Assembly (NCBI GenBank): GCA_026984335.1
Contig: JALSSK010000447.1
Coordinates: forward strand, 1-35,017
DNA length: 35,017 nucleotides
Direction: 5' to 3'
From: Rhodothermales bacterium
GTDB taxonomy: Bacteria > Bacteroidota > Rhodothermia > Rhodothermales > ISCAR-4553
Shown here: positions 6,831-10,005 of the stretch, piece after piece
How positions within the stretch are numbered: the stretch's first letter is position 1
Layout: every line of letters starts with the position of its first letter
The notes under the pieces: model-generated
Told to the model about the DNA's origin: nothing
Databases searched by the model: none
Seen by the model: only the letters and a program-made list of their open reading frames with translations
Position numbers and translations under genes: made by a program

Positions 6831-8951
6831 TCAGGCTTCCTGAAGGGCCTCCGCTTCGGCCACCACCTTCTCCTGCACGTGACGCGGCATCGGCTCGTAG
6901 TGGCTGAAGGTGGCGCGGTGCAGGCCTCGGCCCTGCGTGAGCGAGCGAAGCGCCGTCGAATAGCGGTACAGCTCGGCCTCCGGGACCTGCGCGACGATCT
7001 TCTGGAACGGCCCCTCCGACTCGATGCCCTGGATGCGGGCGCGCCGGGTGTTGAGGTCCCCCATCACGTCGCCGGTGTACGTGTCCGGCACGAGGACCTC
7101 GACGTTGTCGATGGGTTCGAGCAGCACGGGGTTCGCCTGCCGGAACGCCTCGCGGAAGCACATGCGCGCCGCCGTCTTGAAAGCGTTCTCGTTCGAGTCC
7201 ACCGAGTGCATCCCGCCGTCGTAGATGACCACGCGGATGTCGCCCACGGGATAGCCGGAGATGGGGCCTTTCTGAAGCGCTTCGGCCACCCCTTTCTGGA
7301 TGGCTCCGAAAAACCGCCGCATGTCGATCACGCCGCCGACGATGGCGTCGATGAACTCGACCTTCGCCCCCCACGGCATCTCCATCTCCGCCTTCCCGCG
7401 CACACTGATGTCGGGGTCAGGCTTGAACTCACCGTCGAGCGGTTCGACGAGCATCGCGATGTCGGCGAACTGCCCCGCGCCGCCGGTCTGTTTCTTGTGC
7501 CGGTACTTGGCGCGCGCTTTCGTCTGCACCGTCTCGCGATAGGCCACCTTGGGCCGGGAGAACTCGATGTCCACGCCGAAGCGCGATTTCAGACGGTATC
7601 TGGCAATTTCCAGCTGCATCTCGCCCTGCCCGCCGATGACGATCTGACTCAGCAGCGGATCGTGGATGACCTGGAGCGACGGATCCTCGATGGCGATCTG
7701 CTGAAGGCCCTGCGCCAGCTTGTCTTCCTCGCCCTCCCGCGTCGGGGAGACGGCCACGCGATAGCGTGGTTCGGGAAACTCGATGGGTTTGATGACCACC
7801 CGGCTGCCTTTCTTGTGGAGCGTGTCGTTCGTGTGCGTGTGCCGCAGTTTGACGAGCGCGCCGATGTCGCCTGCGAGCATCCGCTCCACGGGCTCGCGGT
7901 CCCGCCCGTTGATGGCATAAAGTTGTCCGAGGCGTTCGATGTTGCCCGTCTGCGCGTTTTCGAGGTCGAGCCCTTGCCGGAGCGTGCCCGCATAGACGCG
8001 GAAGAAGGAATAATCGCCCACGTGCTGTTCGGCCATCGTGCGATAGATGAAGGCGACCGGATCGGCGTTCGGATCCGCAGGCACGGGTTCTCCCTCGACC
8101 GTCTCGGCAGGGGGCATCTCGGCGGGCGCCGGGCACACGTTGTCGATGAAGCTCATCAACCGGGAAGCGCCGATGTTCTTCGTGGCGCTCGTCAGGAAGA
8201 TGGGGAAGAGCTCCCGCCGGAGCATGGCTTCGTGCAGCCCCTGCCGCATCTCGTCTTCGCTCAGTTCCCCTTTCTCGAAATACAACTCCATCAGGCTTTC
8301 GTCGTTCTCGGCGATGTTCTCGACGAGTTCGTTGTGAAGCGCTTCCGCCTCTTCGAGAAAATCCGGGGCAATGTCGCTGAACGAGGGCCTGCCTTTGTCA
8401 TCGAAGGTGATCTGCTTCATCACCAGCACGTCGATGATGCTCCGCGTACCGCTGCCGCCGGGCAACTGCACCACCGTCGCGCCGCGCCCGAAGCGGTCCC
8501 GGATCTGCGCGACGACGGAACGAAAATCGACCTTGTCCTTGTCCAGGTGGTTGATGATGAACATGGCGGGCTTCTGAAGGTCTTCGCCGGAACGCCAGGC
8601 CAGCTCCGTGCCCACCTGCACCCCTTCCGCCGCATTGATGACGTAGAGCGCGGTGTCGGCCACCTTGAGCGCCGCAATCACCTCACCGATGAAATCAGGA
8701 TATCCCGGCGTATCGAGGATGTTGATCTTGTGCCCTTTCCATTCCGCATGCAAAAGCGAGGTGAAGACGGACATCTGCCGCTCTTTCTCGCTCGGGTGAT
8801 AATCGCTGACGGTATTCCCCTCCTCGATTGCCCCCATCCGCTGCAAAGCGCCGCTGGCATAGAGCATCGCCTCGGCCAGCATCGTCTTCCCGCTTCCTTG
8901 ATGGCCCACCAGGGCTATATTCCGGATGTGATCTGCATCGTAGACATTCAT
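6831..8951 (-). CDS. fusA2: Elongation factor G paralogue (EF-G2/FusA2 type)
   Basis: Translational GTPase of about 706 residues with the EF-G domain order. The P-loop is G-H-Q-G-S-G-K-T at residues 16-23. The motif normally written D-T-P-G-H-V-D-F reads D-T-P-G-Y-P-D-F at 80-87, so the catalytic His is replaced by Tyr84. The guanine-specificity motif N-K-x-D reads N-H-L-D at 134-137. The switch I region reads G-N-T-V-S-D-Y and then E-R-Q-M-S-V instead of the R-G-I-T-I block of housekeeping EF-G. These mark the EF-G2 subgroup; a Bacteroides member is reported to work without GTPase activity. The ATG at 8951 is chosen because GAGGAG lies 8 bases upstream; a GTG at 8960 overlaps that Shine-Dalgarno. 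The protein probably acts on ribosomes under particular conditions rather than as the main EF-G. Confidence 0.93.
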   Translation of the reverse strand: MNVYDADHIRNIALVGHQGSGKTMLAEAMLYASGALQRMGAIEEGNTVSDYHPSEKERQMSVFTSLLHAEWKGHKINILDTPGYPDFIGEVIAALKVADTALYVINAAEGVQVGTELAWRSGEDLQKPAMFIINHLDKDKVDFRSVVAQIRDRFGRGATVVQLPGGSGTRSIIDVLVMKQITFDDKGRPSFSDIAPDFLEEAEALHNELVENIAENDESLMELYFEKGELSEDEMRQGLHEAMLRRELFPIFLTSATKNIGASRLMSFIDNVCPAPAEMPPAETVEGEPVPADPNADPVAFIYRTMAEQHVGDYSFFRVYAGTLRQGLDLENAQTGNIERLGQLYAINGRDREPVERMLAGDIGALVKLRHTHTNDTLHKKGSRVVIKPIEFPEPRYRVAVSPTREGEEDKLAQGLQQIAIEDPSLQVIHDPLLSQIVIGGQGEMQLEIARYRLKSRFGVDIEFSRPKVAYRETVQTKARAKYRHKKQTGGAGQFADIAMLVEPLDGEFKPDPDISVRGKAEMEMPWGAKVEFIDAIVGGVIDMRRFFGAIQKGVAEALQKGPISGYPVGDIRVVIYDGGMHSVDSNENAFKTAARMCFREAFRQANPVLLEPIDNVEVLVPDTYTGDVMGDLNTRRARIQGIESEGPFQKIVAQVPEAELYRYSTALRSLTQGRGLHRATFSHYEPMPRHVQEKVVAEAEALQEA

Positions 8952-8959
8952 AAGCGCCA

Positions 8960-8965
8960 CTCCTC
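8960..8965 (-). promoter_or_regulatory. Strong ribosome binding site deciding the fusA2 start
   Basis: GAGGAG on the minus strand, 8 bases before the ATG at 8951. Strong Shine-Dalgarno sites are uncommon among the genes of this window, so this one is notable. Confidence 0.7.
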
Positions 8966-9002
8966 GTTTGACCGCACCGGGCGGTGAATTTCAAAATGCC
9001 AC

Positions 9003-9044
9003 GGAAAAAATCGCCACTCGGCTCCTGTGCCGGGAGCCGGTGGC
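9003..9044 (-). terminator. Terminator-like hairpin in the fusA2 leader (candidate attenuator)
   Basis: Read on the minus strand: GCCAC and CGGCTCC, a seven-base loop, GGAGCCG, one unpaired A and GTGGC form a 12-bp stem. After two bases comes a run of six T (9010-9005). This is a textbook intrinsic terminator, yet it lies about 50 bases before the fusA2 ATG and downstream of a plausible fusA2 promoter. No minus-strand gene precedes it that would need termination here. Confidence 0.7.
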
Positions 9045-9140
9045 GTCTCCATCGAAGCGCCGTGCCTACCATGCACGGAGCACCCAGAACCCGAAGGGTT
9101 TTCAATGGGTGTAAAATACGTTCGAATGAGAAATAGTCAA
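9045..9140 (-). promoter_or_regulatory. fusA2 promoter and structured leader
   Basis: On the minus strand TTGACT (9140-9135), a 16-base gap and TATTTT (9118-9113) form a sigma70-like promoter. The expected transcript begins near 9106-9111 and at once can fold: CACCCA/TGGGTG (9111-9106 with 9086-9081) encloses AACCC/GGGTT (9100-9096 with 9092-9088). A second hairpin, CCGTGC/GCACGG, spans 9078-9060 with a seven-base loop. A GGCG near 9061-9058 can pair with CGCC at the foot of the downstream terminator stem, an arrangement that could switch structures. No known riboswitch class was recognised. The rest of 8952-9270 holds the tsaB upstream region and no other gene. Confidence 0.5.
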
Positions 9141-9270: not shown

Positions 9271-10005
9271 ATGCCCGCTCCCCTGCTTGCCATAGAAACC
9301 GCCACCGACGTATGCGGCGTGGCGCTGATGGAAGACGCGCGCGTGACGGCGACGCTGACGCTGGCGCGCCCGCGCAGGCACGCCGAGCAACTCGTCTCGC
9401 TGATCCGCGATGCGCTCCGGTACGGAGGCCTCGAAGCCGGGGCGCTCGGCGCGGTGGCCGTCTCGATGGGGCCCGGCTCGTACACGGGCCTGCGCATCGG
9501 CGTGAGCACGGCCAAGGGACTGGCGCTGGCCGTGGGCGCGCAGCTCGTGGGCGTGCCCACACTCGAAGCCCTCGCCGCCACGGCGCTCCCGGCCGCCGAC
9601 CCCGGCGACGTCGTGTGCGCCGCCTTCAACGCCCGCCGCGAGGAGGTGTACGCCGCCGCCTTCCGGGTCGGCGCGGACGCCGGGCTGACGCCCCTGGCCG
9701 AGACGACGGCCCTCCCCACAGGCGATCTTCCGACGTGGTTGCCCGTACAAACCGCCGGACGGCTCTGGCTCGTCGGCGAAGGCGCCCCCGCGGCCGCCGA
9801 GGCCCTCGCGCCGACATGGGGCGCCCGGCTGCGCGCGCTCCCGCCCGACGCCTACCCGCCCGACGCCGCCGCCGTCGCCCGCCTCGGTCACGACCGCCTC
9901 GCGCGTGGCGAAACGGAAGATGTCGGCGCCTTCGAGCCGTTTTACCTCAAGGCGTTCGTCGCCCGTCGCAACACCCGCTCGGCCTTCGAACGTCTTCCCT
10001 TTTAG
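9271..10005 (+). CDS. tsaB: tRNA threonylcarbamoyladenosine biosynthesis protein TsaB
   Basis: Subunit of the TsaB-TsaD-TsaE machinery that installs threonylcarbamoyl on A37 of tRNAs reading ANN codons. The protein has 244 residues and an ASKHA-type fold. The N terminus L-L-A-I-E-T-A-T and the block S-M-G-P-G-S-Y-T-G-L-R-I-G are diagnostic of TsaB. The ATG at 9271 directly precedes the conserved N-terminal strand. It is divergent from fusA2 and 84 bases upstream of accD, with which it may be co-transcribed. tsaD and tsaE are not in this window. Confidence 0.95.
   Translation: MPAPLLAIETATDVCGVALMEDARVTATLTLARPRRHAEQLVSLIRDALRYGGLEAGALGAVAVSMGPGSYTGLRIGVSTAKGLALAVGAQLVGVPTLEALAATALPAADPGDVVCAAFNARREEVYAAAFRVGADAGLTPLAETTALPTGDLPTWLPVQTAGRLWLVGEGAPAAAEALAPTWGARLRALPPDAYPPDAAAVARLGHDRLARGETEDVGAFEPFYLKAFVARRNTRSAFERLPF

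Follow-up and report, generated by a model that had tools for sequence, protein, structure and literature searches.

Intrinsic-terminator attenuators of the trp, pyr and riboswitch types share a simple order of parts: the gene's own promoter, a leader, a strong hairpin with a U-tract, and then the gene. Within the Bacteroidota, the closest described case of control over the translation factor considered here is fusA2 (EF-G2) of Bacteroides thetaiotaomicron, which Cur (BT4338) activates at the promoter on carbon limitation; Bacteroides EF-G2 is switched on in carbon starvation and is required for gut colonization (PMC6989115). A leader that governs a gene product is also described in the wider Bacteroidota, in the roc mRNA of B. 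thetaiotaomicron, but roc is an unrelated gene that depends on Cur indirectly (PMC10294740). We analyzed a 35,017-nt stretch of Rhodothermales DNA (the window) in which the EF-G2 leader has the parts of the classical attenuators in the same order, but differs from them in having no recognizable antiterminator, leader peptide or aptamer. The locus resembles B. thetaiotaomicron fusA2 in encoding a related EF-G paralogue, which in that species is under strong transcriptional control; however, the control there is exerted by a promoter activator (PMC6989115), whereas for the Rhodothermales gene we propose control after initiation. No site resembling the Cur consensus (TATGTTnTAnAACATA-like) was found when the whole window was scanned allowing up to 3 mismatches.

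The EF-G2 (fusA2) coding sequence lies on the minus strand at 6831–8951, with its ATG at 8951; the mechanical ORF starts at a GTG at 8960. Its product matches the elongation factor G subfamily model of NCBIfam (NF009381) at 878 bits, above the cut-off, and NF058620 (EFG2_Bacteroid) at 826 bits, under that model's cut-off of 1000. Judged by these matches, the protein is a relative of Bacteroides EF-G2 and not a certified member of the narrow EFG2_Bacteroid model. At least one match to an EF-G2 search was present in all 60 of the 60 genomes first searched, a count that includes other EF-G-type proteins, and at a stricter E-value the order yielded a close orthologue in 98 of 114 genomes. Those relatives that carry names belong to the Rhodothermales; the closest isolate with a name is Roseithermus sacchariphilus (locus L003), at 77% identity. 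Two exact GAAGCGCTTC palindromes occur within the coding sequence (window positions 7274–7283 and 8336–8345).

The minus-strand promoter named in the preliminary description, TTGACT-16-TATTTT (TTGACTATTT...CGTATTTT), was recovered by a consensus scan at 9140–9113 and is conserved before orthologues. Its pattern, TTGAYTATT...TATNTT, recurs at varying distances before EF-G2 in many families and is strongly conserved across much of the order, with a single occurrence, at EF-G2, in the whole genome from which the window comes. Families that lack the hairpin described below carry a homologous promoter close to EF-G2. The promoter is therefore EF-G2's own, and the terminator falls inside the 5′ UTR.

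Downstream of this promoter, the letters CGCCACCGGCTCC-CGGCACA-GGAGCCG-A-GTGGCG, at 9045–9012 on the minus strand, form a terminator hairpin of 13 bp (6 bp, a bulged A and 7 bp, with a loop of 7 nt; −24.8 kcal/mol). It is followed at 9011–9005 by A and six T, matching the six T first noted before the fusA2 Shine-Dalgarno site (GAGGAG, 8965–8960, minus strand), and ends 60 nt before the ATG. EF-G2 thus has an intrinsic terminator downstream of its own promoter and upstream of the start codon, one of the features expected of an attenuator. Among terminator-like sites on the window's minus strand, this hairpin ranks with the strongest and is comparable in strength class with the terminator just after the EF-G2 stop codon (6810–6779, minus strand; −23.3), which we took as a reference for the kind of terminator this genome uses. 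Dinucleotide shuffling of the window's leader gave an equally strong terminator just once in 500 trials. In two relatives, taken singly, the corresponding hairpins are not rare among shuffles (66/500 for L002 and 24/500 for L003), as would be expected if the structure were a chance hairpin or the terminator of another transcript. That explanation nevertheless appears very improbable, given that the hairpin sequence is common to four families and that no gene lies upstream on the minus strand. The upstream neighbor, a tsaB-like gene at 9271–10005, is on the plus strand, divergent from EF-G2, and so leaves no minus-strand gene for the hairpin to terminate, bearing out the original reading; the upstream genes of L002 and L003 are likewise divergent and tsaB-like.

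Inheritance of the hairpin was assessed by comparing about 90 distinct EF-G2 upstream regions. The signature GCCACC(C/G)G...GTGGC is present in 5 of these orthologous leaders, L001, L002 (f1), L003 (f8), L004 (f2) and L005 (f6), which span four families, f1 being represented by two genera. It was found in none of the upstream control stretches and was absent from 99 of 100 shuffle sets. In L001–L004 the hairpin is followed by a T-run and ends 58–60 nt before the ATG (49–51 nt ahead of the codon for query residue 1). In L005 the hairpin is present but has no U-tract and lies farther from the gene, and a weaker and more distant version of the shape occurs in L009 (f7). When four of these hairpins were aligned, 98% of pairs were kept, compared with 32–49% for a slid partner, and three pairs were changed on both sides. 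These compensatory changes come from four sequences, and shuffling of the columns reached the same count in 31 of 500 trials. For the pair of f1 genera, identity amounts to 75% in the promoter, 51% in the pre-terminator leader (shuffled maximum 54%), 73% in the terminator and 82% in the UTR that follows it. A dispersed repeat was rejected, since both f1 genomes (G000 and G001) contain the exact hairpin pattern a single time. Terminator matches in L020 and L023 were set aside because the hairpins overlap the promoter region, as were those in L065 and L067, whose sequences showed a similar arrangement by eye.

Most families in the order, Rhodothermus (f3) and f5 among them, lack the hairpin. Outside the order, 14 upstream regions belonging to other families in the class were examined, and a comparably strong leader terminator was seen in none of them. 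Because the EF-G2 tree sets the hairpin-bearing families apart from one another, the element is either ancestral and often lost or was gained more than once; the shared letters favor common descent. Taken together, the comparisons argue that the terminator is real and inherited.

The leader that precedes the terminator gives a different picture. The preliminary description had drawn two hairpins there. The second, CCGTGC/GCACGG (9078–9060, minus strand), is indeed predicted by folding, in a segment with no similarity to the sister genus, but the first fares less well: its 5′ arm, CACCC (9111–9107), begins 2 nt past the −10 hexamer and is therefore, given a normal start site, probably mostly untranscribed. 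A GGCG at 9061–9058, overlapping the second hairpin, had been proposed to compete for the CGCC at the foot of the terminator (9045–9042). Such pairing is possible, and two results speak for a riboswitch, or some other aptamer for a ligand or protein, coupled to an antiterminator: folding pairs the foot upstream with a probability of 0.97–0.99 before the 3′ arm is made, and the fold of the region including the terminator has z = −3.9. The same occlusion is, however, equalled by 24% of shuffled leaders, and in six genomes antiterminator pairing never rose above that of shuffled leaders (the fraction reaching the observed value ranged from 0.24 to 0.81), so that no switch is visible. Without the terminator, the window's leader shows no folding advantage over shuffles (z = −0.53), and among L001, L002 and L003 the identity of this segment is at shuffle level, with no conserved aptamer upstream of the terminator. 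Rfam covariance models, applied at the gathering score to the window and to eight related loci, gave no match, in agreement with the initial assignment to no recognized riboswitch class; with E allowed up to 10, the best sub-threshold score was 13.4 bits for SAM-Chlorobi, for which 35 are required. The possibility that the terminator arms pair with the UTR downstream (CACCGG/CCGGTG) was also considered; such pairing was not above shuffles. In the absence of an aptamer, an antiterminator or UTR pairing above chance, or an Rfam match, a ligand aptamer is unlikely, and we regard a riboswitch-type leader as highly improbable. Leader-peptide attenuation was rejected: a 42-codon GTG frame (8948–9076) traverses the hairpin and ends at the EF-G2 start, but on inspection the frame and its start were both missing from the L002 leader. 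Of the proposal that premature termination regulates EF-G2, the part that places termination in the 5′ UTR finds support in the anatomy, in the descent of the hairpin in four families and in the position of the promoter near the gene in relatives, whereas the part that invoked a ligand-sensing or antiterminating leader finds none. The UTR between the terminator and the Shine-Dalgarno site (9004–8966, minus strand), which contains an ACCGC/GCGGT hairpin, is the best-conserved non-coding segment relative to the sister genus, at 82% compared with 74% for the start of the coding sequence.

In other Rhodothermales, different elements are found before EF-G2. The palindrome AAGCGCTT lies within 150 nt of the gene in 13 of 90 leaders from several families (L010, L012, L013, L014, L018, L033, L035, L037, L041, L050, L052, L053 and L159), compared with 0.3 in shuffles and 0 in the next stretch upstream. 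We take its core to resemble LacI-family operators, and it is possibly such an operator, tying EF-G2 to sugar control. In the window the palindrome is absent from the EF-G2 upstream region even with one mismatch allowed. Some copies of a longer form stand before proteins whose N-termini, by eye, resemble TonB-linked receptors with a carboxypeptidase-like domain. Family f14 (L024, L029, L030 and L031) has an EF-G2 leader terminator of a different build, which counts in favor of attenuation: a conserved RNA structure some 100 nt long (GCGCCGTATGGGTTCTGA...GGCGGTTTTT) whose closing stem has a T-run next to it, which is single-copy in each genome and has no match in Rfam. The f14 leader, the palindrome and the window's hairpin differ by lineage, and thus different elements have been placed behind the EF-G2 promoter. 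In L034 (f9), about 110 to 35 bases before EF-G2, three segments, ACCTCTT...AAGAGGT...ACCTCTTTT, make a possible classical antiterminator/terminator pair.

The f14 locus L031 bears on another explanation, in which the promoter and terminator make a functional small RNA derived from the 5′ UTR and control of EF-G2 is secondary. Promoter and terminator together have the anatomy of an sRNA gene, and in L031 the promoter region is duplicated, one copy standing before the structured leader RNA and the other directly before EF-G2, so that the two may be transcribed separately. Upstream of the terminator, however, the body of this putative short RNA is unconserved even between sister genera, and we consider this explanation decidedly unlikely for the window.

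On balance, the sequence comparisons make it probable that the element is an intrinsic-terminator attenuator in the EF-G2 5′ UTR, limited to certain lineages, and the terminator probably limits or controls the amount of EF-G2 made. RNA polymerase would start at the conserved EF-G2 promoter and, some 60 nt on, transcribe the GC-rich hairpin and U-tract; a share of transcripts would end as short RNAs of about 100 nt, and the remainder would read through into EF-G2. The order, spacing and inheritance of promoter, hairpin and U-tract are read directly from the DNA, and from them we infer that termination occurs in the cell and limits EF-G2. Readthrough may vary with conditions. It is conceivable, at clearly lower probability, that nothing senses a signal and that the hairpin ends a fixed share of transcripts or just stabilizes the mRNA. 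Such an unregulated throttle would fit a leader with no conserved sensor, no antiterminator above chance and no alternative pairing with the downstream UTR, as well as the absence from many relatives of the hairpin, which, given the EF-G2 tree, was either readily lost or gained more than once. Against it stand the letters of the lower stem, which are kept beyond the needs of pairing, and the fixed distance to the start codon. For the attenuator, these two features, GCCACCGG/GTGGC in the lower stem and the start-codon spacing, combined with a leader in which no aptamer or antiterminator is conserved, favor control by the state of elongation, or by a trans factor recognizing the terminator itself, over control by a ligand-binding leader. 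The more specific proposal that a sequence-specific protein or small RNA recognizes the conserved GCCACCGG/GTGGC stem and thereby controls readthrough into EF-G2 is rather unlikely.

Were such a stem-reading factor to exist, these Rhodothermales would control EF-G2 at the RNA level where Bacteroides uses Cur at the promoter. More generally, if premature termination controls EF-G2 in the Rhodothermales, the same translation factor would be controlled at different steps across lineages.
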